The notes under the pieces are model-generated. The model made no database searches. It was not told the origin of the DNA and saw nothing but the letters and a program-made list of their open reading frames with translations. A DNA stretch of 64,000 bases from the NCBI GenBank assembly GCA_002730975.1, contig PCBO01000004.1, positions 25,400-89,399 on the forward strand, in the 5' to 3' direction. This DNA is from Opitutia bacterium (lineage in GTDB: Bacteria > Verrucomicrobiota > Verrucomicrobiia > Opitutales > Seribacteraceae). This document shows, in pieces, positions 1 to 64,000 of the stretch. Both the position numbers and the translations under genes were made by a program. Positions within the stretch are counted from its first letter, which is position 1, and every line of letters starts with the position of its first letter.

Positions 1-612
1 CTCGTAAAAAGCCGCGGTACGACGGGCGGCAATGAGCCAAGCCTCGAGGAGGGAGGTCTGCCCGTCCTTGTCGAGGTCGGCGGTGGAATCGCCGATGGCA
101 GTGGCCAAGAAGCCACCGAGGCGACAATAGTTTCGCTCCACTCCGCTGCGGGTTGCAGTGATCACCACGCGCCCCTTGGCTCTGAGACTGTTGTGGAAGG
201 GGGAGCTTGAAGAAGCGCAATTGACAATGACCAAAGGTCGTTCGAAATCCTTCAACCACTCGGCCAGTTCGCCCGCCTCAAGGTCCGGCCCGTTGAGGTT
301 GAACTTCGCCTGCTTCCCCGCATAGGTGCCGTGCCCCAGCAACACGATCCAAAGGGGTTGCGGGCTTTTTTTCGATTCCTTGGCGAGAATTTTGCGCAAG
401 TTATCCTTGGGATCAGCTTTCTTCGCCTTACCCACTTGGCGAAAGGTGGCCTTGGCTTTCTTGGAAGCCGCCTTCCACCGGTCCGCCCACTTCGCGAAAT
501 CTTGGCCGTACTCCTCAGTGCCTGAGGCTCCCGTAACTACGATTACGGAGGACTTTTCGGCAGCGCCGAGCAGACCGACGACGAAGGGTAGAAAAATGAG
601 GGCGACACGCAT
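1..612 (-). CDS. Caspase-fold / peptidase C13-like secreted protease (3' end truncated by window edge)
   Basis: Manual reverse-strand translation, open to base 1: MRVALIFLPFVVGLLGAAEKSSVIVVTGASGTEEYG...QPLWIVLLGHGTYAGKQAKF...RPLVIVNCASSSSPFHNSLRAKGRVVITATRSGVERNYCRLGGFLATAIGDSTADLDKDGQTSLLEAW. Signal peptide, LLGHG and VIVNCAS motifs, and a D-x-D-x-DG..SL-E-A segment. ATG overlaps the upstream stop by one base (TGATG). Not listed in the ORF track because it has no stop in the window. Confidence 0.72.
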   Translation of the reverse strand, partial: MRVALIFLPFVVGLLGAAEKSSVIVVTGASGTEEYGQDFAKWADRWKAASKKAKATFRQVGKAKKADPKDNLRKILAKESKKSPQPLWIVLLGHGTYAGKQAKFNLNGPDLEAGELAEWLKDFERPLVIVNCASSSSPFHNSLRAKGRVVITATRSGVERNYCRLGGFLATAIGDSTADLDKDGQTSLLEAWLIAARRTAAFYE

Positions 613-2948: not shown

Positions 2949-2982
2949 GGGATGATTTCAAAGAACAGGTGGCAAAAGCCAT

Positions 2983-6798: not shown

Positions 6799-8876
6799 AC
6801 CGATTCCTCAGTTTGGGCCACAAGGGCTGATCGACGCCAGGTGCGTCCACCCAACCAAGTTTCTGATATTGCCAGCAGAATCGCCCCGACTATCAGCCAA
6901 CGCCACATTTCTTGACGTTTCTCGAGCTGCTCGTCCAGCAAGACTTGCCTTCGGTCTTGGGAAAGCGCCACCTGCGCCATATCCCTCGAGGCAAGTGGAA
7001 GCGCCAGCCCTTCGAGTCGCTCCTCGGAGATAGGGGCAGTATGGCTTTCCGTAGGAGGTAGATTTACCGAAAAGGTGGCGTTTCGAGCACCCTTTAGAGA
7101 GTAGATGCCAGGTTGTTCCGCAAAAAACTCATCGACCGTACCCGACAACCGGATGGTGCCTGCAGGACCCTCCACTTCACGGCTCGCAGTATGTTCGGTA
7201 GAGACGTTGATAGGACGGCCCACAAGGTTAGTAGCCTTAAAGGGGGAGAAGATTCGTCCCATGTCCATCATTGAGTAAAGCAACGGCACGAACTTGCTGG
7301 AAAGGGCGAGCTGACTGTCGGCGGGATGCCACCCACTGGTCAGGACAAGAAGATGTCCGCGACCGATGGGCAAATCTATGAGCGCCGGCGAATCATCGTC
7401 AAAACGAACCAGGACACGGGAACCGGCTAAGCGGGCGGAATCGATTGTCCGATGCTTCCAAAAATGGATTTTCGTGAAATCGCCGAAGCGAGGCTCCTTA
7501 AACGGCACGAACAACGGATGCTCGAAATCCAGACGCGTAAGCAAGGCGTACTCGTTTACCTTGGCCTCGTTCACCGGCACAGGGCCTGATGCCGCAAGGA
7601 CGCCCAAGGTGGAAGCGAGACCTTCGTTCTTCAACACCAACAGCACGGGATGACCGGACTCGCAGAAGGAACGAACTTCCTCGATCACGGCATCCGGCAG
7701 AGCCTCGGTCACGATTAGCAGACGATCATCGGGATGAATCAATTTTCCCGCCAAGGCATCGGGAGCATGAGCAAGCACCTCGACATGCTGCAGGCGCGTT
7801 TTGGAGAAAGCCCGCTCGAGGTAAAAACGCATGTGCTCGACATCATCGGGCTTCTCGTTGCCGACATAGTGAATGCGGATGGGCTCGGGTGCTTCCGGTA
7901 CGATAAAAAGTTGGTCATCGAAGGATTCGTCGTCACCGAGCAGAGCCAGACAGCAGTCCTTGCCGGAGGGTCGGCGAGGAGCCTTCACCGAGCGACTTTT
8001 GCCGGCAGGCAGGTACAGGTGAGTGACTCCGGTCATGTTTGAATCGTCGGGCTTGACCCAAGCCAAGCGAAATTGCTCCTGCGTGGCATCTTCGCTGTTA
8101 ACGACACGAACATGCAGAGGCGTATCACCATCGTTCGATTCCCGGGCGGGAGCGAGGGAAAGACCCGCGTTTCCGATAACATCCGGTGCCAATGGTTCCA
8201 TTGTGAGCTCCATACCCTCTGGCCATTCATGACCTTGCAGGCCATCCATTCGACTCCCTCTCTGCAAATCGCTCAGGACTACGATCCGCTTACGAGTCGC
8301 GGCATCGGTTTCATCTAGTATCTCGGCTGCCGTAAGGATCGCGTTGCCCAAGTGCGTGCCACCCCATCCGGGCTGGAGTCTACCCAAGGTTTCCCGAGCG
8401 ACGGCCGGTCGTTTTTCCTCAGGCAGGTCGTTCCATTGATCGAAGCGTAGCAAAGCCTTTGTCTCATCGCCGAAAGCCAGAATAGCGAGACTACCATCCG
8501 ATTTGGTTTTCTCGATCACCGTCTCAGCCTTTGCCATAGCCTTGGTCCAGAGCCCGTTCCGCTGCATGCTTGCGCTGACGTCGATCAACAGGACAGTTCG
8601 CTGTCTAGCATCTGGATCTTGGTCGGGAATAACGAGTTCCTTGAAGAATGGTCTGGCGAAAGCGAAGGCCAGCAAAGCCAGAAGAGTGCAGCGGAGCAAC
8701 AGGAGGAGAATATCCTCGAGCCGACTCTTTTTGGTTAACCGGGGCGCTTCGGGGCGGAGGAACATGAGGGAGCTAAAAGTGAAGCGCTCGCGCGACTTAC
8801 GTCTTAAAAGGTGAAAGAGGATGGGGCCGGCAATGGCCAGACCGCCCAGTAGGAACAATGGTGTGAGAAAACTCAT
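6795..8876 (-). CDS. BatA-like protein with VWA domain
   Basis: 693 aa; MSFLTPLFLLGGLAIAGPILFHLLRRKSRERFTFSSLMFL is the characteristic BatA N-terminal domain; VLLIDVSASMQRNG is a MIDAS-like DxSxS motif. Confidence 0.87.
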   Translation of the reverse strand: MSFLTPLFLLGGLAIAGPILFHLLRRKSRERFTFSSLMFLRPEAPRLTKKSRLEDILLLLLRCTLLALLAFAFARPFFKELVIPDQDPDARQRTVLLIDVSASMQRNGLWTKAMAKAETVIEKTKSDGSLAILAFGDETKALLRFDQWNDLPEEKRPAVARETLGRLQPGWGGTHLGNAILTAAEILDETDAATRKRIVVLSDLQRGSRMDGLQGHEWPEGMELTMEPLAPDVIGNAGLSLAPARESNDGDTPLHVRVVNSEDATQEQFRLAWVKPDDSNMTGVTHLYLPAGKSRSVKAPRRPSGKDCCLALLGDDESFDDQLFIVPEAPEPIRIHYVGNEKPDDVEHMRFYLERAFSKTRLQHVEVLAHAPDALAGKLIHPDDRLLIVTEALPDAVIEEVRSFCESGHPVLLVLKNEGLASTLGVLAASGPVPVNEAKVNEYALLTRLDFEHPLFVPFKEPRFGDFTKIHFWKHRTIDSARLAGSRVLVRFDDDSPALIDLPIGRGHLLVLTSGWHPADSQLALSSKFVPLLYSMMDMGRIFSPFKATNLVGRPINVSTEHTASREVEGPAGTIRLSGTVDEFFAEQPGIYSLKGARNATFSVNLPPTESHTAPISEERLEGLALPLASRDMAQVALSQDRRQVLLDEQLEKRQEMWRWLIVGAILLAISETWLGGRTWRRSALVAQTEESV

Positions 8877-9814
8877 CGATTGGCGTGGCGGCGGATGCTC
8901 TTGCCTCGACGCCGACGCTGTCTGAGGAAGTCGGACAACACACGATCCAGAGGCAGATCGGTGGTGACGGAAAGAAATTCCGCACCGAGTTTGTTACAGA
9001 TGGAGCGCAAGGAATCGCCGTGTTCCTCGAATCTGCCGAGGTACTTGCGACGGGCGGCAGCAGGATCAATAAAGAAATCGGACTCCGTCTCCACATCATG
9101 AAAGAGGAGGGCTTCGTTATAATCGAAATTCACCTCCTGAGGATCCAGCACTCGAAAGACGACCACGTCGTGACCAGTGGCGGTCAACCGGCCAAGTTGC
9201 CGTTCCAATTCATCAAGTGGAGTAAGCAGATCGGAAACGAGCACAATGAGGCCACGCTTGTTGACCAACTCGACGATCCGGCGAAGTGGCTTGGACAGAT
9301 CGGTCGACTTCCCCCCCGCCGGCTTCTCGAGCGAAAGCATGAGTTGCCGCAAGTGACCCGGCCGATTTTTAGCGGGAAGATAGTCACGAATATTCTCGTC
9401 GAAGCTGAGCAAGCCGACAGCGTCTCCCTGCTGGAAGAGAAAATAGGCCAAGGTAGCAGCGAGGGTATGGGCATAGTCAGCCTTTGTCCAGTCGAGGGAG
9501 CCGAACGTCATGGAGCGGCTTTGGTCGAGCAATAGGTGACAGCGAAGGTTCGTCTCGTCCTCGAACTTCTTGATGTAGAACCGATCGCTGCGGGCGAGCA
9601 AACGCCAATCGAGGTAGCGCGTATCGTCGCCGGGCACATACTGCCTGTACTCCGTGAACTCGGCGGAAAAACCGTGATAAGGACTCCGATGAATCCCGTT
9701 CCAAAAGCCCTGCACCACAACTTGAGAGCGCAATTCCAAGCTGCGAATCTGCATGAGGATGCGCGTATCGATAAACTCGGCTCGCCTGGGAGAAGACTGG
9801 ACCGATGGAGGCAT
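8873..9814 (-). CDS. DUF58 domain-containing protein
   Basis: 313 aa; SPYHGFSAEFTEYRQYVPGDDTRYLDWRLLARSDRFYIKKFEDETNLRCHLLLDQSRSM is the DUF58 signature; ATGA overlap with the neighbouring batA-like gene. Confidence 0.92.
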   Translation of the reverse strand: MPPSVQSSPRRAEFIDTRILMQIRSLELRSQVVVQGFWNGIHRSPYHGFSAEFTEYRQYVPGDDTRYLDWRLLARSDRFYIKKFEDETNLRCHLLLDQSRSMTFGSLDWTKADYAHTLAATLAYFLFQQGDAVGLLSFDENIRDYLPAKNRPGHLRQLMLSLEKPAGGKSTDLSKPLRRIVELVNKRGLIVLVSDLLTPLDELERQLGRLTATGHDVVVFRVLDPQEVNFDYNEALLFHDVETESDFFIDPAAARRKYLGRFEEHGDSLRSICNKLGAEFLSVTTDLPLDRVLSDFLRQRRRRGKSIRRHANR

Positions 9815-10815
9815 TATTTGATTACGGGAGAGATGCTCTCCAATAGGTGCTTGATTACCTTTTCAGTAGTAATGCCTTCGGCTTCCGCCCTGTAGTTGAC
9901 TAGGATGCGGTGACGGAGAACAGGTTGAGAGAGAGCCTGAACATCTTCCACGGTGACGTGGGTGTTGCCAAGCAGAAGGGCTCGAGCCTTGGCCCCGAGC
10001 ACAAGGAACTGGGCAGCCCTGAGTCCCGCACCCCAGTTGACCCACTCATTCACATACTCGAGCGATCCATCCTGATGGGGTCGACTAGCCGCCGCGAGAC
10101 GCACCGCATAACGGGTAATATCTTCCGCCACGGGCATCTTTCGTACGAGCCGGATGAAACGAATCATGGTCGCGGCACTAAAGAGCGGTTTACCGGGTTT
10201 GGTCGGCTCGGCGGTAGTTTGGCGAACCACCTCCACCTCATCGTCCTCGGGCAAGTAGTCGATCACCACGTTGAACATGAATCGGTCGAGCTGTGCCTCG
10301 GGCAACGGGTAAGTGCCCTCCATCTCAATCGGATTCTGCGTGGCGAGCACGAAGAAGGGCTCGGGCAATGGATGTCGCTTACCTGCGGCAGTCACCTGAT
10401 GCTCCTGCATGGCCTCCAGTAGGGCGGCCTGAGTTTTCGGAGGCGTTCGGTTGATCTCGTCGGCCAGAAGCATGTTAGCGAAGACGGGCCCGGGCACGAA
10501 GGTAAGTTGCCGCCCATTCGCCGTTTCGCTCAGCACCTCCGTTCCCGTGATGTCAGCAGGCATCAGGTCGGGTGTGAACTGTACTCTAGAAAACTCTAAT
10601 TTCAGGATATGTGAAATCGACTTCACCAGCAAGGTCTTGGCCAATCCGGGAGCCCCCGTGATGAGGCAATGACCTCCGGCGAAGAGAGAGATGAGGATCT
10701 GCTCGATGACCTCGCTCTGACCGACGATGGTCTTGTCCAGTTCAGTCTTTATCTTCTGATAGCCCTCCTCGAGCTGCTTTACGGTTCTGGATTCGGTTGA
10801 GGTCTTGGTTTTCAT
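9814..10815 (-). CDS. MoxR-family AAA+ ATPase
   Basis: Walker A-type GAPGLAKTLLVKS, Walker B LLADEINRTPPKTQAALLEAMQEHQVT. Start placed at MKTKTSTESRTV (10815) rather than the track's 10944, because this ATG overlaps the DUF4159 stop (TGATG). Confidence 0.93.
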   Translation of the reverse strand: MKTKTSTESRTVKQLEEGYQKIKTELDKTIVGQSEVIEQILISLFAGGHCLITGAPGLAKTLLVKSISHILKLEFSRVQFTPDLMPADITGTEVLSETANGRQLTFVPGPVFANMLLADEINRTPPKTQAALLEAMQEHQVTAAGKRHPLPEPFFVLATQNPIEMEGTYPLPEAQLDRFMFNVVIDYLPEDDEVEVVRQTTAEPTKPGKPLFSAATMIRFIRLVRKMPVAEDITRYAVRLAAASRPHQDGSLEYVNEWVNWGAGLRAAQFLVLGAKARALLLGNTHVTVEDVQALSQPVLRHRILVNYRAEAEGITTEKVIKHLLESISPVIK

Positions 10816-11645
10816 CAATGCGTCATCGCGTAGAAGATTATGTTGATGCCCATTGGATAGGCTTTTGGTTCGGAGAAATTTCGGAAGTAATACTGGTTCT
10901 CGCCCTCTCGCTCCCAACCGTCCCCGAGGTCGGTGTTGTGGCAAATCATGACCATCATCCGTTCCTTGTCGTCGAAGATGCCTTGATAATGGACTTCACT
11001 TCCGTCGTCGGGTCCGGGACGCCACTCGAAATTCATACCGTTCATCGCTTGGCCTATACTGGGGAGCTGCGGTTTTTCCTTCAGGTCGAAAACGGAATGG
11101 AAGACAGGATGCTCTAGGGGTAATTCCTTGGGTTTTCGGTCGGGAAAGACCCGCTTCATCTCAAAAGCAAAGTTGTCGTACTCATCCCCTCCCCAGAAAT
11201 CATCCACAAGAAGAAAGCCCCCATTGAGGAGGTATTTCCGAAGAGCCTTCACCTCATCCTCTGAAAACCACAAATCGCCGGGCTCGATGATATAGATGAA
11301 GGGGTAATCGAACAGTTTCGGATCGGTTAACTCGAGCACCTTGCCCTCGGGATGGACCTTGAGGGAAGTCATTTCCTGCAGGCGGTAAGACAAGTTGAGC
11401 TCGGCATCGGGATAATCAGTAGCCCATTTTCTTCCCCTCCCCCCGTAGCTGCCGTAGCGAATCCTTACGAAAGTAAAAACGTCGCGCGGCATCTCGTTGT
11501 CGAGTTCCCACTCGGGCACACCTCGACGATCGATCGATGGTGGTACGGGGTAACGTTGTGCCCAAGCCACCGCTACTGCGATCAGGATCCCTGTGCCCGA
11601 GAACAAGGCAAACAAAGTTTTACTGCTCTTCTTGCGTTTCATCAT
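10815..11645 (-). CDS. DUF4159 domain-containing protein
   Basis: MMKRKKSSKTLFALFSGTG... signal/TM then FTFVRIRYGSYGGRGRKWATDYPDAELNLSYRLQEMTSLKV...LLNGGFLLVDDFWGGDEY, typical DUF4159. Start moved from the track's 11855 to the ATG pair at 11645/11642 adjoining the TPR stop. Confidence 0.82.
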   Translation of the reverse strand: MMKRKKSSKTLFALFSGTGILIAVAVAWAQRYPVPPSIDRRGVPEWELDNEMPRDVFTFVRIRYGSYGGRGRKWATDYPDAELNLSYRLQEMTSLKVHPEGKVLELTDPKLFDYPFIYIIEPGDLWFSEDEVKALRKYLLNGGFLLVDDFWGGDEYDNFAFEMKRVFPDRKPKELPLEHPVFHSVFDLKEKPQLPSIGQAMNGMNFEWRPGPDDGSEVHYQGIFDDKERMMVMICHNTDLGDGWEREGENQYYFRNFSEPKAYPMGINIIFYAMTH

Positions 11646-51972: not shown

Positions 51973-52671
51973 ATGATCGGAAAGTCCGAAGCACTCGAAC
52001 AAATCAAGGGTGGCTTGATCGTATCCTGTCAGGCGGCACCCTCACCTTCCTTAGAAGACCCGGACATACTTGCAGCTATTGCCGAAGCAGTGGTAACAGG
52101 TGGAGCAGTCGGCATACGAGCCGACGGGCCGGAGAACGTTCGTGCCATCCGGGAGAGAACGAAAGTCCCTGTCATTGGCATATGGAAGCAAACCTTCCCC
52201 GACTCCGAGGTCTTTATAACCCCTCGATTGAAAGAGGTTATTGCAGTAGCCGATACGGACGCGGAGATCGTGGCTTTCGATGCCACCTCGCGTCCGCGAC
52301 CGAACGGAGAAACTTTAGAAATGATCGTCCAAGAGGCGAAGGTTCATTGCGCTTCCCTTCTGATGGCCGACGTAAGTAATTTCGATGAAGGAGTCCGCGC
52401 CGCAGAGTTAGGATTCGATTTAGTGTCGACAACGCTTTCGGGTTACGTCGGCGATTCTACGGAAACACTAAAAGGTCCCGACTTGGATTTGGTGGAGCGG
52501 TTGTCAGGTCATCTAGGGGACTCCGCTCCGGTGGTCGCCGAAGGTCGAATTTCTACTCCCGATCAAGCCGCCGAAGCCATAGACAGAGGAGCCTTCTGCG
52601 TTGTCGTTGGAACTGCGATCACAAGACCACAATCCTTGACACAAGATTTTTGCAAAGGCATGCGTAAGTAA
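51973..52671 (+). CDS. nanE: N-acetylmannosamine-6-phosphate 2-epimerase
   Basis: 232 aa; GGLIVSCQAAPSPSLEDPDILAAIAEAVVTGGAVGIRADGPENVRAIRERTKVPVIGIWKQ; VVAEGRISTPDQAAEAIDRGAFCVVVGTAITRP. Confidence 0.92.
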   Translation: MIGKSEALEQIKGGLIVSCQAAPSPSLEDPDILAAIAEAVVTGGAVGIRADGPENVRAIRERTKVPVIGIWKQTFPDSEVFITPRLKEVIAVADTDAEIVAFDATSRPRPNGETLEMIVQEAKVHCASLLMADVSNFDEGVRAAELGFDLVSTTLSGYVGDSTETLKGPDLDLVERLSGHLGDSAPVVAEGRISTPDQAAEAIDRGAFCVVVGTAITRPQSLTQDFCKGMRK

Positions 52672-52713: not shown

Positions 52714-54357
52714 TTATTTGTCAGTGGCACCGCCAAGTGTAACACTGATACCGTACTTAGTCTGCAAGTGAGCGTGAGAAATACTGGCGTATCTGCTCTT
52801 TGGGTACTTCTTGCAAGTGATTTGGAAGGATTTGATGGCATTTTCTTTTTTTCCCGCGAGTTCGTAGAATTGGGCGATACGGTGCTGGGCACGATCCGCT
52901 ACGTTTTCGTGAGATTTTGCCTGATTAAGTAGAACGAGCCCCTCGGTCCATTTTTTGAGGTGGCGATTACATTCTGCCATACGGAAATAACCTTCAGGAT
53001 AATTATCGGTTTGTCGGTAGGACTGAATAGCTTGAGGCCACTGTCTCTTTTTTTCGTAGCACTCGGCAATGCCCCAATTCCAATCGGAATGACGATCGGG
53101 GTCGACGGTCAGAAGAGTTCGGTATGTGGCTATAGCCTTGTCCCACTGGCTCGAATCTCTCCATGTGGAAACGACGTCCTGCTGCCAAGTCGCTTCTCGT
53201 TCCTTGTCGAGACCGATAAGCGCCAAGTAATGGCGAACAGCCTCCTCGTACTTTTTTTCCTCGCGAAAAGAACCTGCGACGGCTCGACGACCATTCACCT
53301 TGTCGGCATAACGACCATAAACGGAACGGGCTTGTTCCATACGCTTCTTCGATTTGTGCCAAGCGGCAATCTCACCGAGGACTCCATCGTCCATACCAAG
53401 AATCTTGCCCATTCGTTCATAGGCAGCTATGACCTCCTTGTCTCTATCGATGGTCTTGTGAATGCTTGCGATTCGACCAAGAACATCACGTGCCTGCGCC
53501 TTCGACTTGTCTCTGGATACATCAGCAGGAAGTCGTTCCTCGAGGAATGAGATCACTTGCCCGGCTAACTTCGTCGCCCTTGCCTTGGTCGCATCCGTTC
53601 GGAAAAGTTGTCCGACGGCACTGGCACCGATCTCGTGAGTGTAACGAACGAATCCTCCATTGTCCTTCTCGAAATAAACGCTTAGGGCTTCAACGCCCTG
53701 TGGGAATTCACCTTCTCGGAAATAGTACATGGCCAGACTTCGAGAAGCCATTGATCGATGGGTCGCGGTTGCCTTGGTCTTGGCAGTCCTGAATGCGATC
53801 GAAGTCCAAAGTTCGACCTGCCGTTCCTCGTCCTTGCGGATGGCGGCTATGCCTAGTAGTTCAACTTGAGCAAGAGTTGCCAAATAATGCTTGGGATAAT
53901 CAATCACCACAGAATCGAATACCTTCTCGGCCTTCTTCGGTTCACCTTGAAGGAGGTGGCAATTCCCGATCATGAAGGTAGATAGAATGGCTTCGTTGCT
54001 TTCGGGCCAGTAATCGATTACTGATTTAAATCCCTCTCGAACAGCGGTATTTACCAAACGAAGCTTAACCTGACAGTGAGACCACATGAGCAAGGAGTAA
54101 GGTCCGCCTGCACTGCGTTCGTAGAGTGTCAGAAATTTTTCGTATTCGGAGGCCGCGGCCTTGTAATCGCCGGAAATATAGAATTTCTCAGCAATTTTCA
54201 GCTGGTAGCGTTCTATTTCACGGAGCTTGGCAAATGCTTCCAGGGGCATTTGCTCAAGGTAACCAAGGCGTGCAGCAGATAAATGTTCCGACACCAAGAT
54301 GCCGAAGAATAAAGCCCCAGTAAGGATCAATCTGATTTTTTTCGTGAATCCAGCCAT
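52714..54357 (-). CDS. TPR-repeat secreted protein
   Basis: Start moved from the track's 54513 to MAGFTKKIRLILTGALFFGILVSEHLSAARLG (54357); many TPR-like repeats (ISGDYKAAASEYEKFLTLY, SQWDKAIATYRTLLTVDPDRHSDWNWGIAECYEKKRQWPQAIQSYRQT). Confidence 0.8.
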   Translation of the reverse strand: MAGFTKKIRLILTGALFFGILVSEHLSAARLGYLEQMPLEAFAKLREIERYQLKIAEKFYISGDYKAAASEYEKFLTLYERSAGGPYSLLMWSHCQVKLRLVNTAVREGFKSVIDYWPESNEAILSTFMIGNCHLLQGEPKKAEKVFDSVVIDYPKHYLATLAQVELLGIAAIRKDEERQVELWTSIAFRTAKTKATATHRSMASRSLAMYYFREGEFPQGVEALSVYFEKDNGGFVRYTHEIGASAVGQLFRTDATKARATKLAGQVISFLEERLPADVSRDKSKAQARDVLGRIASIHKTIDRDKEVIAAYERMGKILGMDDGVLGEIAAWHKSKKRMEQARSVYGRYADKVNGRRAVAGSFREEKKYEEAVRHYLALIGLDKEREATWQQDVVSTWRDSSQWDKAIATYRTLLTVDPDRHSDWNWGIAECYEKKRQWPQAIQSYRQTDNYPEGYFRMAECNRHLKKWTEGLVLLNQAKSHENVADRAQHRIAQFYELAGKKENAIKSFQITCKKYPKSRYASISHAHLQTKYGISVTLGGATDK

Positions 54358-55931
54358 TTGTTGTACTCCGCGTGAGCATAGAAGATAACATTTGTTCCCA
54401 ATTGATAGCAAGCCTCCCAGATTGGCGTAGGTACACCCGCGTGATCGTCCGCCCATGCGTCTCCGATATCGCCGGGGTGATAATAAGCGGCAATTCGTCC
54501 GTCCACCACCCATGCCAACGCATCCGTTCCTCCATGTGGCGCAACATAAGGTAAAAAAGGAATGGGGTAAGGCACACGATGGATGGGATGGTCGAGAGGC
54601 ACTCTGATGTAAGGTACGTTTGGAAGAACTCTTCCCATGAGGGCTTTGAACTGGTTTCCCCAGTGGGCGCTGCCACCGTTGTCGGCGAACAACATGCCAT
54701 GCTTTTCAATCAGAAATCCTCGAAGTACGTCAGTTTCACTTTTGCCTAAGCTGATGTTTTTCTGTCCAGTCATGTAAACCACAGGAGGGCTTTTACCGAC
54801 CGGAAAGTTCTTTAGCTGGGCAACCTTTCGAGTTTCAGGACGTTCGGCGATCTTGTGTTGCGTTCTTAGGTTGTACTGAATGAGCATATTGAGATCGGCG
54901 TCAATTCCCTGGTCCCAGTCGCCACCGGAATATTCTAGCCTGATGAAGCGAACCTTTCCCCTGTTCGTCCCACCCGAAAAACCGGCTCCCGCCCCTTTGC
55001 CGTAACCTACTTGATAGGCATGCTTGGTTATCTCCAAAAGTTGGAGCTTTATTTCCTCAAGCGGCGGAGGATTGAATATCACCGAACTGAGAGGGTTGAT
55101 AATGAACTTCTTCTTGATCACCTTTTGCACCTTGACCACCTGCTGAAGCTGCTTTTGCTCCCCTCCCCCGGCAGGCATTTCGTATAGCTCTTGGCAACCT
55201 GAAGCCTGCAACAAGAGCAAGACAATCAAGATGAAAGCAATAAGGTAACCAAAGAGGACTGACAGTGACTGGCGGAGCTTTTGCCTTTGGCGACCATAAA
55301 ACCATGCATCCATGTCGAATGGATTCCAAATACGAGAACCTATTTCCACACCAGCAACTGATGCGTGCATGGACTGGAGCGGCCCCACATTGGCTAATGC
55401 ACCGGAAATCTCCAAGCGAGCAACCTGTAGTGCCCGAGACTTCCGCTCCACCCAGAAAGTAGTCCAACCCAACCCCATAACAAAGGTTATGCAGAGCCCA
55501 GCCCTCGCAGCCATTGCCTTAAGGGTCATCCACCCCATTTCGTAGAAGGCGAAAGTAAGCAAGTGCCAGATGGGGAAAATACAGAAACTGTAAATAGCGT
55601 AACGAACCAGAGGGCTTTCTTTCCTTGCTTGCTGGAGCCACCAAGCTACGGGAAAAAGACTCAAACAAAAGCCAATGACCTCTACGGGGTTTTGGTAAGT
55701 AGGCCATTTGAACCATAGCCACTCATCGTACCAAGTCCAATTACCAACACCTACAAACTCAATCTGGATCCATAATAAAACACGACTCAATTGTAAATGA
55801 ATATCCGATGCAACGCTCAAGTGGGCAATCCAATCAAACCAAAGGATTAACCAACCTGCCCCTATAATAGAGGTGACAACGATCGCCTGACGAAGACGAA
55901 GAGACCGTGAGACCGTTTCAGCTTCGCTCAT
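54327..55931 (-). CDS. Membrane-anchored DUF4159 domain protein
   Basis: 534 aa; multiple N-terminal TM helices, then GKVRFIRLEYSGGDWDQGIDADLNMLIQYNLRTQHKIAERPET...VLRGFLIEKHGMLFADNGGSAHW...GTNVIFYAHAEYNKWL. Confidence 0.8.
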   Translation of the reverse strand: MSEAETVSRSLRLRQAIVVTSIIGAGWLILWFDWIAHLSVASDIHLQLSRVLLWIQIEFVGVGNWTWYDEWLWFKWPTYQNPVEVIGFCLSLFPVAWWLQQARKESPLVRYAIYSFCIFPIWHLLTFAFYEMGWMTLKAMAARAGLCITFVMGLGWTTFWVERKSRALQVARLEISGALANVGPLQSMHASVAGVEIGSRIWNPFDMDAWFYGRQRQKLRQSLSVLFGYLIAFILIVLLLLQASGCQELYEMPAGGGEQKQLQQVVKVQKVIKKKFIINPLSSVIFNPPPLEEIKLQLLEITKHAYQVGYGKGAGAGFSGGTNRGKVRFIRLEYSGGDWDQGIDADLNMLIQYNLRTQHKIAERPETRKVAQLKNFPVGKSPPVVYMTGQKNISLGKSETDVLRGFLIEKHGMLFADNGGSAHWGNQFKALMGRVLPNVPYIRVPLDHPIHRVPYPIPFLPYVAPHGGTDALAWVVDGRIAAYYHPGDIGDAWADDHAGVPTPIWEACYQLGTNVIFYAHAEYNKWLDSRKKSD

Positions 55932-55956
55932 GGAACGGAGGGAAGTATTCGCAGGC

Positions 55957-56445
55957 TTAAATATCGTCGAGACCGTCTAAAAGGTCCTCGCCGGAGGAGT
56001 CGAGAGGGTTGGAATCAGGATCAGCAACCTTCTGCTCACCAATACCCAGAGCGTCGGCAGTAGATTGCTCGGAAGTGGCGACTGGTTTCACATCGGGTTC
56101 GGATTCCTCCGGTACGTACTCGGATTCCTTTTCCTGCTCGCTGGAGGAAGCACCTTTAGCGGGAGTCTCGTCACGGGCGAGCTTTTCAGCCTCCTGATTT
56201 TGCTTGAGGTAAAAAGGAACAGCCGAAAGGACAAAAAGGAGAACAGCCATAAACACAGTCGCCGAAACCAGACTTTTCCCAAGATGACTCTCGGCCACGG
56301 CGCCCATCATTTCCTTTGGGCTTTTCCCTTTGAGGTTTGCGAGGAACTCACGGAGTTCGCCGACCACCGCTTGACTGTTCTTCCCAAGACGCTCCATATC
56401 TCTTTTCGGACTTACGACGGGTTTGACTGTTGGTTCTTCGCTCAT
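55957..56445 (-). CDS. Small one-TM protein with acidic extracytoplasmic tail
   Basis: 162 aa; cytoplasmic N-terminus, one TM (LVSATVFMAVLLFVLSAVPFYL), Glu/Asp/Ser-rich tail ending LDGLDDI; lies within the ExbBD operon. Confidence 0.65.
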   Translation of the reverse strand: MSEEPTVKPVVSPKRDMERLGKNSQAVVGELREFLANLKGKSPKEMMGAVAESHLGKSLVSATVFMAVLLFVLSAVPFYLKQNQEAEKLARDETPAKGASSSEQEKESEYVPEESEPDVKPVATSEQSTADALGIGEQKVADPDSNPLDSSGEDLLDGLDDI

Positions 56446-56477
56446 GGTTTCTTTGATTTTCTAAAAAAGTTCCTCGG

Positions 56478-56882
56478 CTATTTTCTCTGTTTTTCGAGTA
56501 CGTGATGAATTTCTCCTCCGGCTTTGCTGACTGCCTCTATGACGGGCTCGAAATGAATGGCAGTCGCATCCTTATGAACCTTGAGGAGAACGGTACGCTT
56601 GTTCTGTTCCGCGTTTCCGAGAAGATCAGTGAGAGCTCCCGCCAATTGCCCCTGAGCGATCGGACGACCATTCAAATAGCTCTTGCTGTCGACGTCTATG
56701 ACCACACTGGCCTTATAATTCTTCGCCTGTTCCAATTCCTCTTCGGCTGCGGGTTCCCAACGAAGATGGCTATCGTCTTGAGCACGAGCCAGAATAACGA
56801 AAAAGATAAGCAGCAGGAACGCGATGTCACCCATAGCCATGGATGGAACCGATGCCTCAAAACTGCGTTTGGGAATTTTCAT
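56478..56882 (-). CDS. ExbD/TolR family protein
   Basis: 134 aa; ASVPSMAMGDIAFLLLIFFVILA retains the TM Asp of ExbD; periplasmic ExbD-like domain. Confidence 0.88.
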   Translation of the reverse strand: MKIPKRSFEASVPSMAMGDIAFLLLIFFVILARAQDDSHLRWEPAAEEELEQAKNYKASVVIDVDSKSYLNGRPIAQGQLAGALTDLLGNAEQNKRTVLLKVHKDATAIHFEPVIEAVSKAGGEIHHVLEKQRK

Positions 56883-56886
56883 CGTT

Positions 56887-57309
56887 TCAGTTTACGATAT
56901 GGGCTTGCTCCTCTTCCAATTGGAGCGTGACGATTCCACCGGCTTGCTCGATAAGTCCCGTAATGTTTATCCAGCGTTCGTACGGCACGTCCTTTCGGGA
57001 CTTGAGTACCACAACCTTGTCCTCCTTTCTTTCCTTTCTGGCAAGAACACTTGCAAGGCGAGGGGCGAAACTCTTGTTGGGGACGGGATCGCCATTCAGT
57101 ATCACGGCGGTTCGAGTTAGTTCCACTTCGGGATTCTGGCTTTGGTTCTTTTTATCGGGCTCTTCTTCGCTCTTGGGAATTTCCTGAGGTCGGCCTTGCT
57201 CGGGTTGAACAGATGCGCAAACAAGAAAAAAGATAATTAGGATGAAAGCTATGTCGCTGGAAGCGCCGGCAGGAGGCTCTACCAACAATTTGTTCCGCCT
57301 AAGCTTCAT
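56887..57309 (-). CDS. ExbD/TolR family protein
   Basis: 140 aa; GASSDIAFILIIFFLVCASVQ retains the TM Asp; ATGA overlap with the exbB-like gene. Confidence 0.86.
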   Translation of the reverse strand: MKLRRNKLLVEPPAGASSDIAFILIIFFLVCASVQPEQGRPQEIPKSEEEPDKKNQSQNPEVELTRTAVILNGDPVPNKSFAPRLASVLARKERKEDKVVVLKSRKDVPYERWINITGLIEQAGGIVTLQLEEEQAHIVN

Positions 57310-58196
57310 TCCTGAGATGCCTTCGGAACAGTCTTACGACGAGCAGGACGCTTGGTTTTCTTCGCCTCATCTTCGTGACGGTCAAGAGTCAGACGAACGG
57401 TAACTACCTCGATAAGCTCCGCCGCAGTGCCCTCGACCTCAAGAACGAAAGCGTTAATAATACTGGTGAAGTAATTGAAGAATATATATGCGGGGATGCC
57501 CACGATGAGACCGAAGCATGTGGTAAGCAACGCAACCTGAATGCCGGAAGCCGCGGCTTCGACAATGTTGACTTCGCCCATTTTCTCGACGATGTCGGAA
57601 AAGGCCACGATCATTCCTTGTACGGTTCCTAGGAAACCAAGCATGGGAGCAACGCTGGAAATCGTAGCTAGAATAGGGAGATGCCTTTCAAGAGCCGCGA
57701 CTACGTGAACACCATAGTTTTCCATACTCTTCACGACCTGATCTTCTATTTGAGCTTGGTCGTGCCCGAGCTTTTTGAGGACAAGGTATTTCCGCAAGCC
57801 ATTGGAAAGCATAGCGGCCACCGGACCACGTTCACCTTCACAAAGAGCAAGAGCATCCTCCGGCTTGTCGTCGGAGAGAAGGTCAATTACTTTTTGGCGA
57901 AGCTTTTCACCGTCGGAATCCAGCATTTTGAGGCTCCGCCAACGTTCGATAACAACCGCCAAACCGACAATGGCCAGAATAAGCAAAGGCCACATGAAGA
58001 AACCCCCTTCGAGAAGCAAGCCTATGGCTCCCTCCTGCATTACGAGCTCCAACCAAGTGGGCTCGGCGACTACCTCTAAAGCTTGCTCGGCGGCGTCGGT
58101 TGCATTTGCATCGGCAACGGACGAGTTCCCATCAGTTGAATTAGAATCCGTGGCGTTAGTCTCGTCTGCTTGAGCAAGAAAAAAAGGGAGAGTCAT
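57306..58196 (-). CDS. MotA/TolQ/ExbB proton channel family protein
   Basis: 296 aa; FFMWPLLILAIVGLAVVIERWRSL; LPILATISSVAPMLGFLGTVQGMIVAFSDI; ALLTTCFGLIVGIPAYIFFNYF. Confidence 0.95.
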   Translation of the reverse strand: MTLPFFLAQADETNATDSNSTDGNSSVADANATDAAEQALEVVAEPTWLELVMQEGAIGLLLEGGFFMWPLLILAIVGLAVVIERWRSLKMLDSDGEKLRQKVIDLLSDDKPEDALALCEGERGPVAAMLSNGLRKYLVLKKLGHDQAQIEDQVVKSMENYGVHVVAALERHLPILATISSVAPMLGFLGTVQGMIVAFSDIVEKMGEVNIVEAAASGIQVALLTTCFGLIVGIPAYIFFNYFTSIINAFVLEVEGTAAELIEVVTVRLTLDRHEDEAKKTKRPARRKTVPKASQE

Positions 58197-58219
58197 AATT
58201 ATAGGCTTCTAGCGATTAA

Positions 58220-61200
58220 CTACTCGTCGAGGTTAGCTTCCTTCTCAAATTGGCTCAGCATCTCGGGCAAGGCCAATCTGCCTCGCGAATACTTAGCGGC
58301 GTCGCTTTCGGGGAAATCCCATCGGCATCGATTGTAGCGCTGGAAGGCGAGAGGTACGTTTTTACCCATTCGATAACTCTCACCGCCCCAAAAAAGAGCT
58401 TCGGAACAGAGCTTTTCGTCGGGGAAACGCTTTACGAAGTCATCGAACGCGGTTGCTGCATCCATATAATCCTCTCCCTTGTAGTGACACTGGCCAACGC
58501 GAAATGCCATCTTGGGAGACCATTGATGCGATTCAAAACGATCAATGAACTTAATCCCTACTTGAGCGGCGATATCAAACACCTCACGTTTATAAAAATA
58601 CTCGGATATACGAATCATGGCATTCGCGATCAAGGGACTCTTCGGATAAGTGGAAGCCAGAGTTACGTAAGCCTCCAAGGCATCATCAAAACGTTCCGCC
58701 TCCTCGTAAGCCTGAGCCAGTTTGTATTGGGCGTCTGCCGCGAGAGGATGCTCGGGATAATTTCTAACAATTGTTTCGTACGCCTCAATGGCTCCTCCCC
58801 ACTCCTTAAGTTCCTGAGCAAATTGTCCTAAAAGATAATTCATGCGAGGAGCATACTTGGGATCGGGATAATCCTCAACAAGCTGCTTGAGAGTGAGGCG
58901 CCCGTTCTCCAAATCGGTAGCTGCCTCTTTTTCCCGTCCCAGTTTGCGATGACTCTTGAAGAGCTCAAAATAGCTTTCCGCTACGTGAAACTGGGTACGA
59001 ACGGCCAGTTCCTCATCCCCGAAGACCTTGCTGAAGGAAGATATGATTCCATCTGCCCCAATGGAAACGGCTGATTCAGATGTAACGACGAGGAAACCTT
59101 CTTCGGTATTAGCTGCAGGATCGTGGTAGGACGCGGAAAGAAGATCACCAAAGAAAGTTTCGATAGAAACGTTGGCGTCTAGGTTTCCTACCGTGGGCTT
59201 CTCTTCTGCGATAAGGCGAAAAGATCCCGTAAAAACACCGCTATGGCTTAGGGTTTCCTCCAATGAAACAGTTTCCGTCTCACCAAGTTTAGTCTCAATC
59301 TTAACCTCAGCGAAATCTCGATCATTGGAGACGTCTCGATCAGGATCAATGACACGTAGATATAATTTTTCGCCGACATACAAAAGTTCCGAGGATTCTT
59401 CATACTCGGGACCCGTAATGGCAAGAGAACCATCGGCCACCATCTTGCCTTTGGAGCTTAAAATGGTTCCATTCGTTTCATCGGGACGTTCGATATCCTC
59501 ATAAGAGGCAGTAACGAGATCGGCACCCGAAAGGTTTACCACGCGGACCGTAAGATCGGGACCTTCCGACTCGGCTTCTTCCTCAGGCGCAATTAAGCCC
59601 CCGGAAAGATTTCCGGGAGCATCGACCCCCGCGGGAATAACTTCGGGACTTCCAATGCCACCAAGACGCAGCAACGCCTGCCCCACGAATCTACCTTCAT
59701 AAAGTGGCCAGTTTGCAAAACCCAAAGGCGCCGTTTTCGCTTCGCCAAAAGCAGGGGAAAGTTCGCACTCAAGAATGGCCTCACGAGAAGAATTCCCCTC
59801 GCCGAGCAATACCTTAACCCTTGTTTTGGACAGACTGTCTTTTGCTGCATCAGGATCAATCACTTCAACAGTAAGAGGCATCTCGTAGGCAAAACCGAGG
59901 ACTTCATCGGAATCCTCTCCTTTCGGAAGGTAAGTACCCTTGGCTTTGCCGAGAGTGGAACGCACATAACGAGTCTCCACGATCCGGACAGCTCCATCCG
60001 TGGGTTGGCGAACAAAAACCACTCCCTCGCGAGGGAAAGAATGTCCGGGGAAGGTATTTTGGGGATCGACGTAACGGAGGTTAACGCGGTCGCCAACCGA
60101 CACGGCGAGTTTCCCCTCCTCTTCCTCCGCGGCGGTATCAACCTCTGTTCGAAAGACACCCGTATTCTCGCCGGTCTCGATGGCTTCCAAGCTCATCGGA
60201 GCATCGGCGTTTCGGAACACCTCGACATTCAATTTGTCGACTCCGGCAGTGACGTCCATATCGTAATCAGTAACCTCGATTACAATTCGTTCACCAGGGT
60301 CTATTCTCATGAGGTCCTTCTCCGTCTGGCTAACTTGACCGTTCCCTGAACGAACGAACTCATAGCTGATGGGACGAATCTTGGCGTTGTAATAAGTTGC
60401 GGTAAGATTCTTGGTCAGCAGTCGATTCTTCAACCCGCCGCGAGCAAACTCATCTACGTAACTGGCGGTGACGACGTCTCCCGCAGTGATTTCGAGCACG
60501 TCGTTCTTGGCCATGGCCAAAACATCCGCCTGAGTGGGCACTAGAACTTGGTCTCTCTCTTTGACTTCCACTTGGTTTATTGCCAAGGATTGTCCAACAT
60601 ACTCGTCGAATATGATTTCGACATGGCGTACGTGAGCTGGAGGAATGGAGAAGTTCCAGTTTGAACCCTTTTTCACCACAGTCAGTTCATGAACTTCTTC
60701 CTGAACATCGCCTACTGCAGCAATGCCCGAAAGGTCAAAATCCGAAGGACGAAAAGATCCGGTCGCGACTTGTTCAACATTTGGGTTTTCCCTAGCACGA
60801 GTGACCATCGCGCCCAGAAGAGTATTGCTCACTTGCGCCACAATGGTGAGACTGTGAGCGCCTGCATCTAGAAATACGTCTACCGATCGAGCTTTGCGGA
60901 CTGCCTTTTCATCGCCGGAAAGAACCAGTTTACCGTTTACCATGATGGCTGCATTGTCCGCAGTAACGTTAAATCTAGTGGCACCCGCCTTCGGTTGAGC
61001 ATACTGTCCCGACCACACAATGAACCTAGGTTTCTTGGCGCCTTTCCCGCCTTCCTCGGCAACTTCCGGAGCGAGTGCCCAATCAAGTTCAGTCACCTCA
61101 ATAGTCTCTTCGGGTTCACGCCCGGAAAGACGGTCGACAAAGGCATTCCAGTCGCTGAGATTGACATTCCCCAGAGTCGAATAAACTCGACGAGACATTT

Positions 61201-64000
61201 TCCCTTTTGCCAAGCCCGGTTCCTTGCCTTCGGACATTGCGGGGAAACGGGCTAATTCATACCAGAACCGACCATCGTGACTACCGCGGAGTCTCATCCT
61301 GACGGGAGTTTGGTTTCCGCGTTCAAGACGCCCGTCCCGAAGATGCGGATTACCGTTTGGCTCCACTTCAAAACGTCCATTGTCCGAATTAAAGGTCAAG
61401 GCGGAGGCATTGCCTTCAAGCGGAGTCAGGGTAAAGAGATCCTCGGCACCCTCATAACTCCATTTGCCTTTCTTCACTTCCTCGCCGACCTTGGCTTGAT
61501 AGGAACCGTCATCATTCAAGGTGAGGGCGTGATCCTTGCCAGTCGAATCACGATAGGTCCAAGTATTCGTCGGCTCGGGTTGCTCGGGGGAACGAATAGT
61601 AACTTCGGTTATATCAAACACGTCCTTTAGATCTACGGTCAGCCACTTGGGAGCAACTCCGTCGGGTTCGCTGATCCATGAGGAGGCGACGTCCTTGTCA
61701 ATCGACATGAGAGGGTTGCTCTCGATTGAAACGTCACTAGCGAGAGCGCCTGCGGGCAATTCTCCTGTCTTGGCGCGACCGAGAAAAATCCCGGAACTCG
61801 GAGCCGTTTCCTGCAACTCGACGGTGACGGAATCTCCACTGGTAGCCTCTAGTTTAACCAGAGACTTGTCAGCTTCATTCGTGAGGTCACGGTCCGCGTC
61901 TTTGACACGCATGTAGATAAAATTACCAGGTTTAATTTGATTGGTGGGGCGACCTTCAGACGACAACTCCAATTCGTCTTCATCCTTTTCGTCGTCCGCC
62001 ACCAGTTCATCAGTAAAAGATTTGTCTGCGTCTCCTTCCTCTATCACTAGACTGCTGGCAGCATCGAAATCAGCATCGGCAGCAATGTGAATTTCATTGG
62101 TGCCGAGCATGTGAAACCGAAATTCCTTCTTGAAATCCTCAGGATAATCAACTGTCACGACGTCATTGCCCTTCAACTGGAGGACACGATCACCTTTGGA
62201 AACAATACCCAGAGCAGTGGGAATTTCCGCCATAAAGAGACCCTTACCCGCACCACCGCTAATCAGGCTGACCTTCTCTTCATCTCCACCCGGCTCTGTA
62301 CGCACGTGAACGGGAATTGTCGTATGACCGCGACTGATACCCAAGTCACTGTCTTGAACGACGATAGAGAGTGCTACGCCGGGTTCGTGCCAACGCTTCG
62401 AACTTTGCCCGAGGCGACCGACAGCACGGAGAAGTTGCAACTGATCCATGTAGCGTTGCTCCAGACCGTATACCTCGGCAAGGTTGTAGAGCGTTTCATT
62501 GGCAAGCTTAACGTCGGGCACACGCTCCAATACTGTTCTAAAAATATTTCGGGCTTTGTCTCGGTCTCCTTGGCGGCTAGCCAACAACCCTCTCATAAAC
62601 TCGGCTCGAATAACAACTTTGGTGTCACGGCTGTTGGCCAAGTCGTCAAAGATTTCCTCGGCCTTGACGTAATTTTTCTGTGCCATGAAGCTTTCGCCGA
62701 TTCCAAACACGGCCTCGATCGCCTCCTCACCATCCGGATAAGAATTTTTAACGGTGGTAAATTCACTGCGAGCTGCATCAAAACGAGCCCACTTGAAATA
62801 ATTACGGGCAAGGAGCAGTCGAACACTAGCCTTTTCGGCATCGGAAAAGTTGGTAGACTCCCCGTTCTTCACCAACCAGACCGCAAGGAGATCTTCAACC
62901 CTACCATGGTTTTCGTCTCCACCTGCGGCGACATGAGACTCGGCCGCAAAAAGAATAAGCTCAAGGGGAAGCTCGGATCGATATTTATCAAAAAGTTTTC
63001 GCTGGGAAAGGTACGCCTCCAGAGCACGGTCTCGATCCCCGAGACGAAGCTGGAGAAGAATTTCCATAAGTGGGGCAAGTGGGCTGTCTTTGTCTATGGT
63101 CATGCCGATTCCACCGATTCGGGAATAAGCCTGAGCGAGCAGACCTCTTCCATTCTGCTTGTAACTGGCCGGAACGTTAGCTGCATAAGCTTGGGCGGCA
63201 GTAAGGAGTGTGGCGGCGCCAACATGATCTCCTGCCGACAGTGCAGCTTGGGCAAAACCCAATGCGCTGTTCCATCCGTGCGACCCATTGTCCGCTCGAA
63301 GAAGAGCGGATCGTAAAGCTTTGAGTCGCTCAATTTCCGTCTTCGGCTTCTGAGACTCAATTTGTAATAAGGCAAGCTTGGCGAACAAGGAATAGTTGTA
63401 GATGTCCAAATCTCGCAGAGAAGTCAGAATACGAATCTTGTCGGCTTCGGAAATCTCTTGATTCGAACGAATGGAGGAAATCCAAGAATTAGTTTTACTA
63501 GCATCGAAAGTGAATCCTCGAAATGGCCTTTGGTCCTGCCTGTTGCGAGCTTCGTTCAGGACTCGCGTAAAATTATTCCAGTCCTTCTTATCGAATAGGA
63601 TTTCAGCATAATCGGATGCAAAAGCCCCGTGCTGGTCGTTGTCCGCTTTGCGCCACTTATCGAACTCACGGGACTTGGCATTTTCGTCGGCATCACGAAG
63701 ACGTAGGTGTTCGGCATTACGAAACTCCGCATTATTAGGTTCAACCCCCGCATGGCGATTCACGTACTCGTTGGCCTCGTTAGTCATGTTACGATCCAAG
63801 AGCAAGTTGACGTTGCTACTGAGAGAACCGACATTCTTTCCGAACTTCTCTTCAGCCTTGGCCACGTATTGGTGAACTTGGCGGAGCAGGGCATCATCCT
63901 TGGCCTCGTGGGCGGTTCGATAAGCGTCATGCCAACGATTGTGATCGTTTACTAATTCTGCCTGCAACAAATGCCGTACTGCCTCCAAACGGTCACCCTC
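58220..64000 (-). CDS. Giant secreted-type multidomain protein: TPR repeats, repeated beta modules, discoidin/PA14-like insert (5' end truncated by window edge)
   Basis: At least 1922 aa; the track start at 63988 is a TTG near the edge and the frame remains open (EGDRLEAVRHLLQ), so the gene runs past 64000. TPR-like N- and C-terminal regions (HPLAADAQYKLAQAYEEAERFDDALEAYVTLASTYPKS), repeated V.DPDRDV..D modules in between. Confidence 0.82.
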   Translation of the reverse strand, partial: EGDRLEAVRHLLQAELVNDHNRWHDAYRTAHEAKDDALLRQVHQYVAKAEEKFGKNVGSLSSNVNLLLDRNMTNEANEYVNRHAGVEPNNAEFRNAEHLRLRDADENAKSREFDKWRKADNDQHGAFASDYAEILFDKKDWNNFTRVLNEARNRQDQRPFRGFTFDASKTNSWISSIRSNQEISEADKIRILTSLRDLDIYNYSLFAKLALLQIESQKPKTEIERLKALRSALLRADNGSHGWNSALGFAQAALSAGDHVGAATLLTAAQAYAANVPASYKQNGRGLLAQAYSRIGGIGMTIDKDSPLAPLMEILLQLRLGDRDRALEAYLSQRKLFDKYRSELPLELILFAAESHVAAGGDENHGRVEDLLAVWLVKNGESTNFSDAEKASVRLLLARNYFKWARFDAARSEFTTVKNSYPDGEEAIEAVFGIGESFMAQKNYVKAEEIFDDLANSRDTKVVIRAEFMRGLLASRQGDRDKARNIFRTVLERVPDVKLANETLYNLAEVYGLEQRYMDQLQLLRAVGRLGQSSKRWHEPGVALSIVVQDSDLGISRGHTTIPVHVRTEPGGDEEKVSLISGGAGKGLFMAEIPTALGIVSKGDRVLQLKGNDVVTVDYPEDFKKEFRFHMLGTNEIHIAADADFDAASSLVIEEGDADKSFTDELVADDEKDEDELELSSEGRPTNQIKPGNFIYMRVKDADRDLTNEADKSLVKLEATSGDSVTVELQETAPSSGIFLGRAKTGELPAGALASDVSIESNPLMSIDKDVASSWISEPDGVAPKWLTVDLKDVFDITEVTIRSPEQPEPTNTWTYRDSTGKDHALTLNDDGSYQAKVGEEVKKGKWSYEGAEDLFTLTPLEGNASALTFNSDNGRFEVEPNGNPHLRDGRLERGNQTPVRMRLRGSHDGRFWYELARFPAMSEGKEPGLAKGKMSRRVYSTLGNVNLSDWNAFVDRLSGREPEETIEVTELDWALAPEVAEEGGKGAKKPRFIVWSGQYAQPKAGATRFNVTADNAAIMVNGKLVLSGDEKAVRKARSVDVFLDAGAHSLTIVAQVSNTLLGAMVTRARENPNVEQVATGSFRPSDFDLSGIAAVGDVQEEVHELTVVKKGSNWNFSIPPAHVRHVEIIFDEYVGQSLAINQVEVKERDQVLVPTQADVLAMAKNDVLEITAGDVVTASYVDEFARGGLKNRLLTKNLTATYYNAKIRPISYEFVRSGNGQVSQTEKDLMRIDPGERIVIEVTDYDMDVTAGVDKLNVEVFRNADAPMSLEAIETGENTGVFRTEVDTAAEEEEGKLAVSVGDRVNLRYVDPQNTFPGHSFPREGVVFVRQPTDGAVRIVETRYVRSTLGKAKGTYLPKGEDSDEVLGFAYEMPLTVEVIDPDAAKDSLSKTRVKVLLGEGNSSREAILECELSPAFGEAKTAPLGFANWPLYEGRFVGQALLRLGGIGSPEVIPAGVDAPGNLSGGLIAPEEEAESEGPDLTVRVVNLSGADLVTASYEDIERPDETNGTILSSKGKMVADGSLAITGPEYEESSELLYVGEKLYLRVIDPDRDVSNDRDFAEVKIETKLGETETVSLEETLSHSGVFTGSFRLIAEEKPTVGNLDANVSIETFFGDLLSASYHDPAANTEEGFLVVTSESAVSIGADGIISSFSKVFGDEELAVRTQFHVAESYFELFKSHRKLGREKEAATDLENGRLTLKQLVEDYPDPKYAPRMNYLLGQFAQELKEWGGAIEAYETIVRNYPEHPLAADAQYKLAQAYEEAERFDDALEAYVTLASTYPKSPLIANAMIRISEYFYKREVFDIAAQVGIKFIDRFESHQWSPKMAFRVGQCHYKGEDYMDAATAFDDFVKRFPDEKLCSEALFWGGESYRMGKNVPLAFQRYNRCRWDFPESDAAKYSRGRLALPEMLSQFEKEANLDE

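Follow-up and report, generated by a model that had tools for sequence, protein, structure and literature searches.

The locus described here raises the question of what a motor of the ExbB-ExbD family drives when no TonB is encoded with it. To our knowledge, motors of the ExbBD/TolQR type drive very few processes, i.e., Ton uptake, Tol-Pal and Agl gliding. The locus occupies the end of a stretch of 64,000 nucleotides (the window, positions 25400-89399 of contig C25, which runs 29 kb further) from a 3.85-Mb draft genome of Verrucomicrobiota whose nearest named relatives are marine Opitutia metagenome-assembled genomes (MAGs). A preliminary description of the window had proposed a TonB-less system powered by the proton-motive force (PMF) and made of seven minus-strand genes, and all seven were found at the place and in the order claimed. 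As a genomic unit this system is well supported by conserved linkage and by the absence of TonB and TolA, while its energy route is a matter of inference. We consider it moderately probable that the set is a distinct accessory PMF-driven envelope machine of Verrucomicrobiota and Planctomycetota, in which TonB would be replaced by an adaptor with one transmembrane (TM) helix together with a DUF4159 protein, both acting on a giant periplasmic protein. We place it among the ExbBD/TolQR-type motor systems, with a transducer and a load that differ from those known.

Gene content, conservation, motifs and topology by hydropathy are direct observations. In the direction of transcription, the set enters the window with the giant (58220-64000, minus strand, continuing to contig ~91149), of which the C-terminal ~1926 of ~2510 aa lie in the window. 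After 23 bp it is followed by an ExbB/TolQ-type proton-channel subunit of 296 aa (57306-58196, minus; Pfam MotA_ExbB, 5e-26), which overlaps by 4 bp with ExbD1 (56887-57309, minus, 140 aa), and 4 bp beyond the latter lies ExbD2 (56478-56882, minus, 134 aa), the Pfam ExbD matches of the two having E-values of 7e-15 and 3e-12. The putative one-TM adaptor of 162 aa (55957-56445, minus) comes 32 bp later, and a further 25 bp separate it from a multi-TM membrane protein of 534 aa with a C-terminal DUF4159 domain (54327-55931, minus; Pfam DUF4159, 1.8e-29). The last gene, here called TPR599, encodes a secreted protein with many Pfam tetratricopeptide repeats (TPRs) (52714-~54357, minus) and overlaps the DUF4159 gene by 31 bp, an overlap that is identical in locus L040; its open reading frame (ORF) has 599 aa from an earlier in-frame start and ~547 aa when it starts at this conserved overlap. 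The tight spacing reported earlier was thus confirmed, with gaps of 4-32 bp or short overlaps. When the contig was followed past position 64000 for the rest of the giant gene and for a TonB or TolA gene, the start of the giant was found at contig ~91149, and no TonB or TolA was present in the contig part upstream of it. Instead, a secreted TPR/beta protein of 805 aa (TPR805; contig 91206-93623) lies directly upstream, followed outward by DUF1501 and PSCyt2-PSD1 genes.

Both ExbDs keep the TM aspartate, as had been claimed: Asp19 in SSDIAFILI of ExbD1 and Asp19 in MGDIAFLLL of ExbD2. These aspartates and the ExbB channel motifs are retained in all aligned loci of the two subtypes described below (types A and B); LGTVQG and LLTT of ExbB show no variation across 12 loci, and MGDIAFLLL of ExbD2 is unvaried in every aligned locus. 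In the ExbB/ExbD family these residues serve proton flow, and their conservation supports a predicted passage of protons through ExbB together with ExbD1 and ExbD2. The motor proteins score above the Pfam cut-off for PF01618 and PF02472. Against the NCBIfam equivalog models, ExbB reaches 103 bits for TolQ (cut-off 221) and 72 bits for ExbB (cut-off 206), the ExbD scores are 18 bits against cut-offs of 153 and 123 bits, and ExbD1, which fits TolR better, reaches 34 bits against a TolR cut-off of 127. The motor scores are thus slightly closer to TolQ/TolR, and both the giant and the 805-aa protein contain TPR segments that fit the YbgF/CpoB and BamD models. Both would be expected of a second motor of the TolQ-TolR-TolA type that serves constriction or maintenance of the outer membrane, the giant then being a CpoB/YbgF of unusual size. 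We regard this explanation as unlikely. All of these scores are far under the TolQ, TolR and ExbB equivalog cut-offs, Pfam and NCBIfam detect no TolA (domain III), TolB or Pal in the set, and the size and lectin-like, sugar-binding-like modules of the giant would be left unexplained. Moreover, type A is confined to 8 of the 373 genomes examined from the window's order, which argues against a housekeeping envelope function; type B occurs in two of them, and in this order the set is an accessory system.

Conserved linkage was surveyed with an ExbB scan of named genome contigs, in which gene order was judged as far as each contig reaches. The order TPR805-giant-ExbB-ExbD1-ExbD2-adaptor-DUF4159-TPR599 was present in 11 loci. 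Their taxon labels are Opitutia, Verrucomicrobiia, Prosthecobacter, Phycisphaeraceae, Pirellulaceae and Planctomycetaceae; such labels are not always right for MAGs, but here they are backed by more than one independent assembly. Some of the loci are closely related, L039 to the window and L047 to L048. In total, this arrangement (TPR805-giant-motor-TPR599, type A, to which the window belongs) was found in 12 further loci, including four Planctomycetota contigs. A profile of the DUF4159 protein run over 388 Verrucomicrobiota genomes detected type A (>700 bits) in two. A divergent second subtype, type B, scored 170-290 bits and was detected in some two dozen genomes, mostly of other classes. 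All seven profile-visible genes are present in 13 type B loci, in the order giant-TPR599-TPR805-motor or TPR599-TPR805-giant-motor. The block ExbB-ExbD1-ExbD2-adaptor-DUF4159 is constant through all orders. In two loci of one genus (L096 and L097) the motor half lies apart from the giant. No locus mixing A- and B-like parts was found among the loci compared, and both types occur together in G320 and its close relative G611. The genes are therefore joined in many other genomes and in three different orders, and linkage that outlasts such reshuffling strongly indicates that they work as a unit.

Some type B loci (L110:16522-18281, L111:305-3112, L101, L105, L133, L134 and L095) carry two extra genes that are absent from type A, i.e., a membrane protein with an N-terminal FGxxGxxSxxxW segment directly after DUF4159 and a small gene between the giant and ExbB.

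The adaptor most likely stands in the role of TonB, jointly with the DUF4159 protein. In type A it has a conserved cytoplasmic amphipathic segment (LREFL..KGKSPKEM.G..A.S.L), preceded in some members by an N-terminal extension resembling a GYF_2-type domain, then the TM helix, a variable, disordered acidic and proline-rich linker, and a last stretch of ~25 conserved residues (LGIGE.K..DP..NPL....DLLDGL). Type B adaptors are too diverged for the adaptor profile and were identified by position in 15 loci; they have the same layout, with an acidic end such as FSLDDL.LD, and the profiles of the two types align over 42 columns including the TM helix (hhalign P 87%, E 4e-6). The TM helix carries S/A-x3-H-x6-TS in 14 of the 15 type B adaptors. 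The S-x3-H element corresponds to the SH of the SHLS motif, as seen in Escherichia coli TolA and TonB. SHLS is described in PMC12204202 as the motif by which TolA and TonB bind their motors. In the type B adaptors, the S/A-x3-H part is present, and the L and the last S of SHLS are at other positions.

The second putative transducer is the DUF4159 protein, whose PF13709 match scores 103 bits against a gathering score of 25.9. By hydropathy it has 2-5 TM helices, and because the positive residues are on the cytoplasmic side, the C-terminal domain should be periplasmic. A conserved GC closes the last TM helix and is followed by a K/R-rich linker and NP.S ahead of the domain; this GC was considered as a lipobox and rejected, R or M standing around it in the Planctomycetota members. 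An x3-H element also occurs in the last TM helix of 6 of 13 type B DUF4159 proteins. The AlphaFold model has a predicted local distance difference test (pLDDT) score of 57 overall and 70-90 in the domain part, which matches 4i66, the only solved DUF4159-like structure, by fold (E 4e-7); other fold matches are weak and glutamine-amidotransferase-like. Two membrane helices of the operon may thus be TonB-like, the first carrying a short tail and the second a periplasmic domain of Rossmann-like fold. No mention of DUF4159 was found in the open-access literature searched.

Three other observations concern related proteins. One type B DUF4159 protein (L103:4170-6482) has an N-terminal FHA domain, of the kind that binds phosphopeptides, which hints at phospho-regulation of the putative machine in that lineage. 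The window encodes a second DUF4159 protein at 10824-11474, whose neighbours (612-10944) include a DUF58 protein, a membrane protein resembling BatA and a MoxR-looking ORF. By eye, this is the MoxR-DUF58-BatA setting in which DUF4159 is commonly found, with no relation to the ExbBD set. There is also a second class of TonB-less motors, with the plan TPR protein, ExbB, ExbD and one or more large one-TM proteins that combine PD40/WD40-like (TolB-like) propeller repeats with a squalene-hopene-cyclase-like toroid (L030:3450-13455 and L028:4104-12833 in the same genome, L123:3-7586 and L125). Two such proteins stand in succession in L030. L123 and L125 belong to G413 and G400, two genomes in which this class lies next to the type A operon as a convergent neighbour. 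The propeller/toroid proteins are another candidate transducer family.

It could also be asked whether the set is simply an extra ExbB-ExbD energiser for a canonical TonB and its receptors, with the linked genes as bystanders. The window's genome has 12 ExbB-type genes, one TonB_C domain and 8 receptor barrels, and among the 32 system-positive genomes TonB_C is present in 30 and receptors in 29. The preliminary description had stated that no TonB-dependent receptor is encoded here; this holds for the window and the operon, but the contig does carry one on the plus strand at 99689-102049, ~6 kb upstream of the gene for the 805-aa protein. A receptor gene within ~8 kb, with SASA/sulfatase genes, is found in three type A genomes of family f1 (the window's own, G552 and G516). 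Both the counts and this proximity would favour such an energiser; the three genomes are related, so that the proximity amounts to one or two events. The single TonB_C (PF03544) match of the window's genome is not in the operon but on contig C22 (L037:10042-10731), where it follows an ExbB of 476 aa, an ExbB of 203 aa and an ExbD (cluster L037:7196-10731), so that this TonB has its own ExbB/ExbD genes. Moreover, three carriers more than 90% complete have no receptor match (G014, 97%; G239, 91%; G342, 93%, the last also without TonB_C), which suggests that the set does not depend on the receptor family, though it is usually beside it. The linked genes, being conserved through three gene orders, are not bystanders, and an extra energiser appears highly improbable.

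The giant is split in the assembly, where frames of 605 and 1926 aa meet at eight ambiguous bases (contig 89400-89489). As the gene is whole in the 92% identical L039 (2508 aa; other full-length relatives have 2374-2775 aa), the break is read as an assembly fault; that the 605-aa ORF and the giant are two genes was rejected on the same grounds. Intact giants have a Sec signal peptide without a lipobox, and N- and C-terminal TPRs (CpoB/YbgF-like) around ~1,150 aa of beta modules, which are S-layer-like, F5/8-C-like (discoidin-like) and PA14-like. Each giant has 1-3 repeats of the form V.D.D.D......ET...SGVF, whereas shuffled sequences give 0.01-0.03. The NCBIfam anammox S-layer model matches the giant with E-values of 7e-7 to 2e-9 (up to 35 bits), and Foldseek with an AlphaFold model of pLDDT 65 gave a Nitrosopumilus S-layer protein as first match (E 3e-16) and PA14 carbohydrate-binding domains among the next (E ~1e-6). 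In Pfam, F5/8-C (22 bits) and PA14 (13.5 bits) are below the cut-off. The giant is likely to be a lectin-like, S-layer-like scaffold as far as these models can indicate, and its exact modules are assigned tentatively.

The S-layer-like modules could alternatively belong to a machine for surface motility or surface-layer organisation similar to AglRQS-Glt of Myxococcus, which would move or arrange the giant. One ExbB-type and two heterologous ExbD-type subunits are combined as in AglR-AglQ-AglS, where periplasmic TPR partners are likewise found. The DUF4159 protein and PSD1-DUF1501 are not known from Agl-Glt. For the vWA relatives discussed below, gliding is suggested in PMC12204202. However, the set has no AglZ, and the sole trace of other Agl components or of the periplasmic and outer-membrane Glt proteins is a TPR segment weakly similar to GltE (18-34 bits, cut-off 225); the giant has a Sec signal and no recognised surface-sorting signal, and the carriers are uncultured MAGs. 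A motility or surface-layer machine is therefore distinctly unlikely.

The neighbours of the set point in another direction. In each of the five type A loci for which upstream DNA is available (the window's contig, G552/L126, G400/L124, G320/L094 and L130, and the end fragment in Prosthecobacter L043), an orthologous PSD1-DUF1501 pair immediately precedes the set in the same orientation; no type B locus has such a pair. Across these loci, identity is 46-69% for PSD1 and 61-88% for DUF1501, against 25-36% for other copies. Both families are abundant in the genome, and chance neighbourhood was considered; it is ruled out for type A by orthologues at the same place in 5/5 loci. The gap between DUF1501 and the 805-aa gene is 201 bp in the window's genome, so the two may be on separate transcripts. 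DUF1501 belongs to the alkaline-phosphatase/sulfatase superfamily, and PSD1 proteins have no established function. The receptor gene mentioned above stands on the other strand with a SASA-sulfatase fusion (contig C25 97407-102049), and a NanE-like epimerase lies just downstream of the operon (window 51973-52671); in G552 the type A operon has the same NanE-like, SASA-sulfatase and receptor neighbours, and in G516 it has the SASA-sulfatase and receptor genes. Sulfatase candidates number 38-53 per Mb in type A genomes against 19-48 in 20 f1 genomes without the set (Mann-Whitney P 6e-4), a suggestive difference only, being uncorrected for kinship or completeness, drawn from few independent clades and counted as first-look candidates per Mb, scored matches saturating at ~54 per genome. 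From the lectin-like modules, the PSD1-DUF1501 pair, the sulfatase, SASA and NanE neighbours and the sulfatase-rich type A genomes, glycans are a plausible load. A narrower explanation would be a TonB-independent PMF-driven machine of PVC (Planctomycetes-Verrucomicrobia-Chlamydiae) bacteria for glycan capture and intake, in which the two TonB-like helices work the lectin-bearing giant and not an outer-membrane receptor; we consider it rather unlikely.

In the accessory envelope machine that we favour, a pentamer of the ExbB/TolQ type with two different ExbD/TolR-type subunits would be the motor. The role of TonB would be split between the one-TM adaptor, with its disordered acidic tail and conserved end peptide, and the multi-TM DUF4159 protein, in which the last TM helix would lead through the basic linker to the periplasmic DUF4159 domain. 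Both membrane proteins would pass motion to the giant TPR scaffold, with its S-layer-like and PA14/discoidin modules, and to the two further TPR proteins. In the window's subtype, with PSD1-DUF1501, the likely task would then be the binding, movement or processing of bulky periplasmic glycans. Complex formation, force transfer and substrate are what we infer: transfer of force to the adaptor and the DUF4159 protein is suggested by gene position and, in type B, by the TM motif, and action on the giant by linkage and size.

Several points weigh against this interpretation. The preliminary description suggested that the giant could receive its energy by way of the 162-aa or the DUF4159 protein. 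This route is consistent with the S-x3-H helices of type B, but the His is lost in the window's subtype, a small or hydrophobic residue standing there in all type A adaptors. The loss need not be fatal, since the TM helix of the genome's only TonB has no His either. No outer-membrane pore or anchor is encoded in the set, so that what crosses the outer membrane is left unexplained. The domain calls in the giant are tentative because the models are mediocre (pLDDT 57 and 65), and S-layer-like beta sandwiches are promiscuous matches. The glycan link is drawn from neighbours and an uncontrolled sulfatase correlation, and G435, a genome with type B, is poor in sulfatases, having 9 candidates, so that the load may differ between subtypes.

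Compared with the Ton system, the set shares a PF01618/PF02472 motor with TM aspartates and channel motifs and a protein of TM helix plus disordered linker beside it; it differs by two ExbDs, no TonB_C, no receptor in the set and scores far below the ExbB/ExbD equivalog cut-offs. The mucin-utilisation locus MUL1 of Akkermansia (Amuc_0543-0550), likewise from Verrucomicrobiota, reportedly has TPR/ExbB/ExbD-type genes that are needed for glycans to accumulate in the periplasm (Davey et al. 2023). In PMC13174399, which cites that study, MUL1 is described only as Sus-like and as absent by synteny from aquatic Akkermansiaceae. The closest published relative is the vWA 'force transducer' clusters of the Planctomycetes-Verrucomicrobia-Chlamydiae (PVC) bacteria (PMC12204202, Mol Biol Evol 2025). 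As far as the paper's text describes them, they have in common with the present set the plan TPR-tolQ-tolR-tolR-TM-anchored protein, the idea of a TonB-less motor and, with type B, the SH part of SHLS in the TM helix. However, the C-terminal domain there is vWA, whereas here it is DUF4159, with no Pfam vWA match in any gene, and helix and domain are in one chain there but split here between the adaptor and the DUF4159 protein. The giant, the two further TPR proteins, PSD1-DUF1501, DUF4159 and a separate adaptor do not appear in that text, a distinction that applies to the text, as the clusters drawn in the paper might overlap with ours. In Gemmata, dextran uptake stops when the PMF is collapsed with carbonyl cyanide m-chlorophenylhydrazone (CCCP), by a mechanism that is not known (PMC5394234). 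The idea that Planctopirus ExbD mutants are dextran-uptake mutants was dropped, no Exb being found in that paper.

With the motor kept, the TonB domain dropped and a giant lectin-like scaffold added in two phyla, the set would be a further class of coupling between the PMF and the envelope. It also suggests a testable means by which PVC bacteria could bring macromolecules into the periplasm, and, if the explanation by glycan intake were true, it would account at the molecular level for the way in which large polysaccharides are taken up there at the expense of energy.
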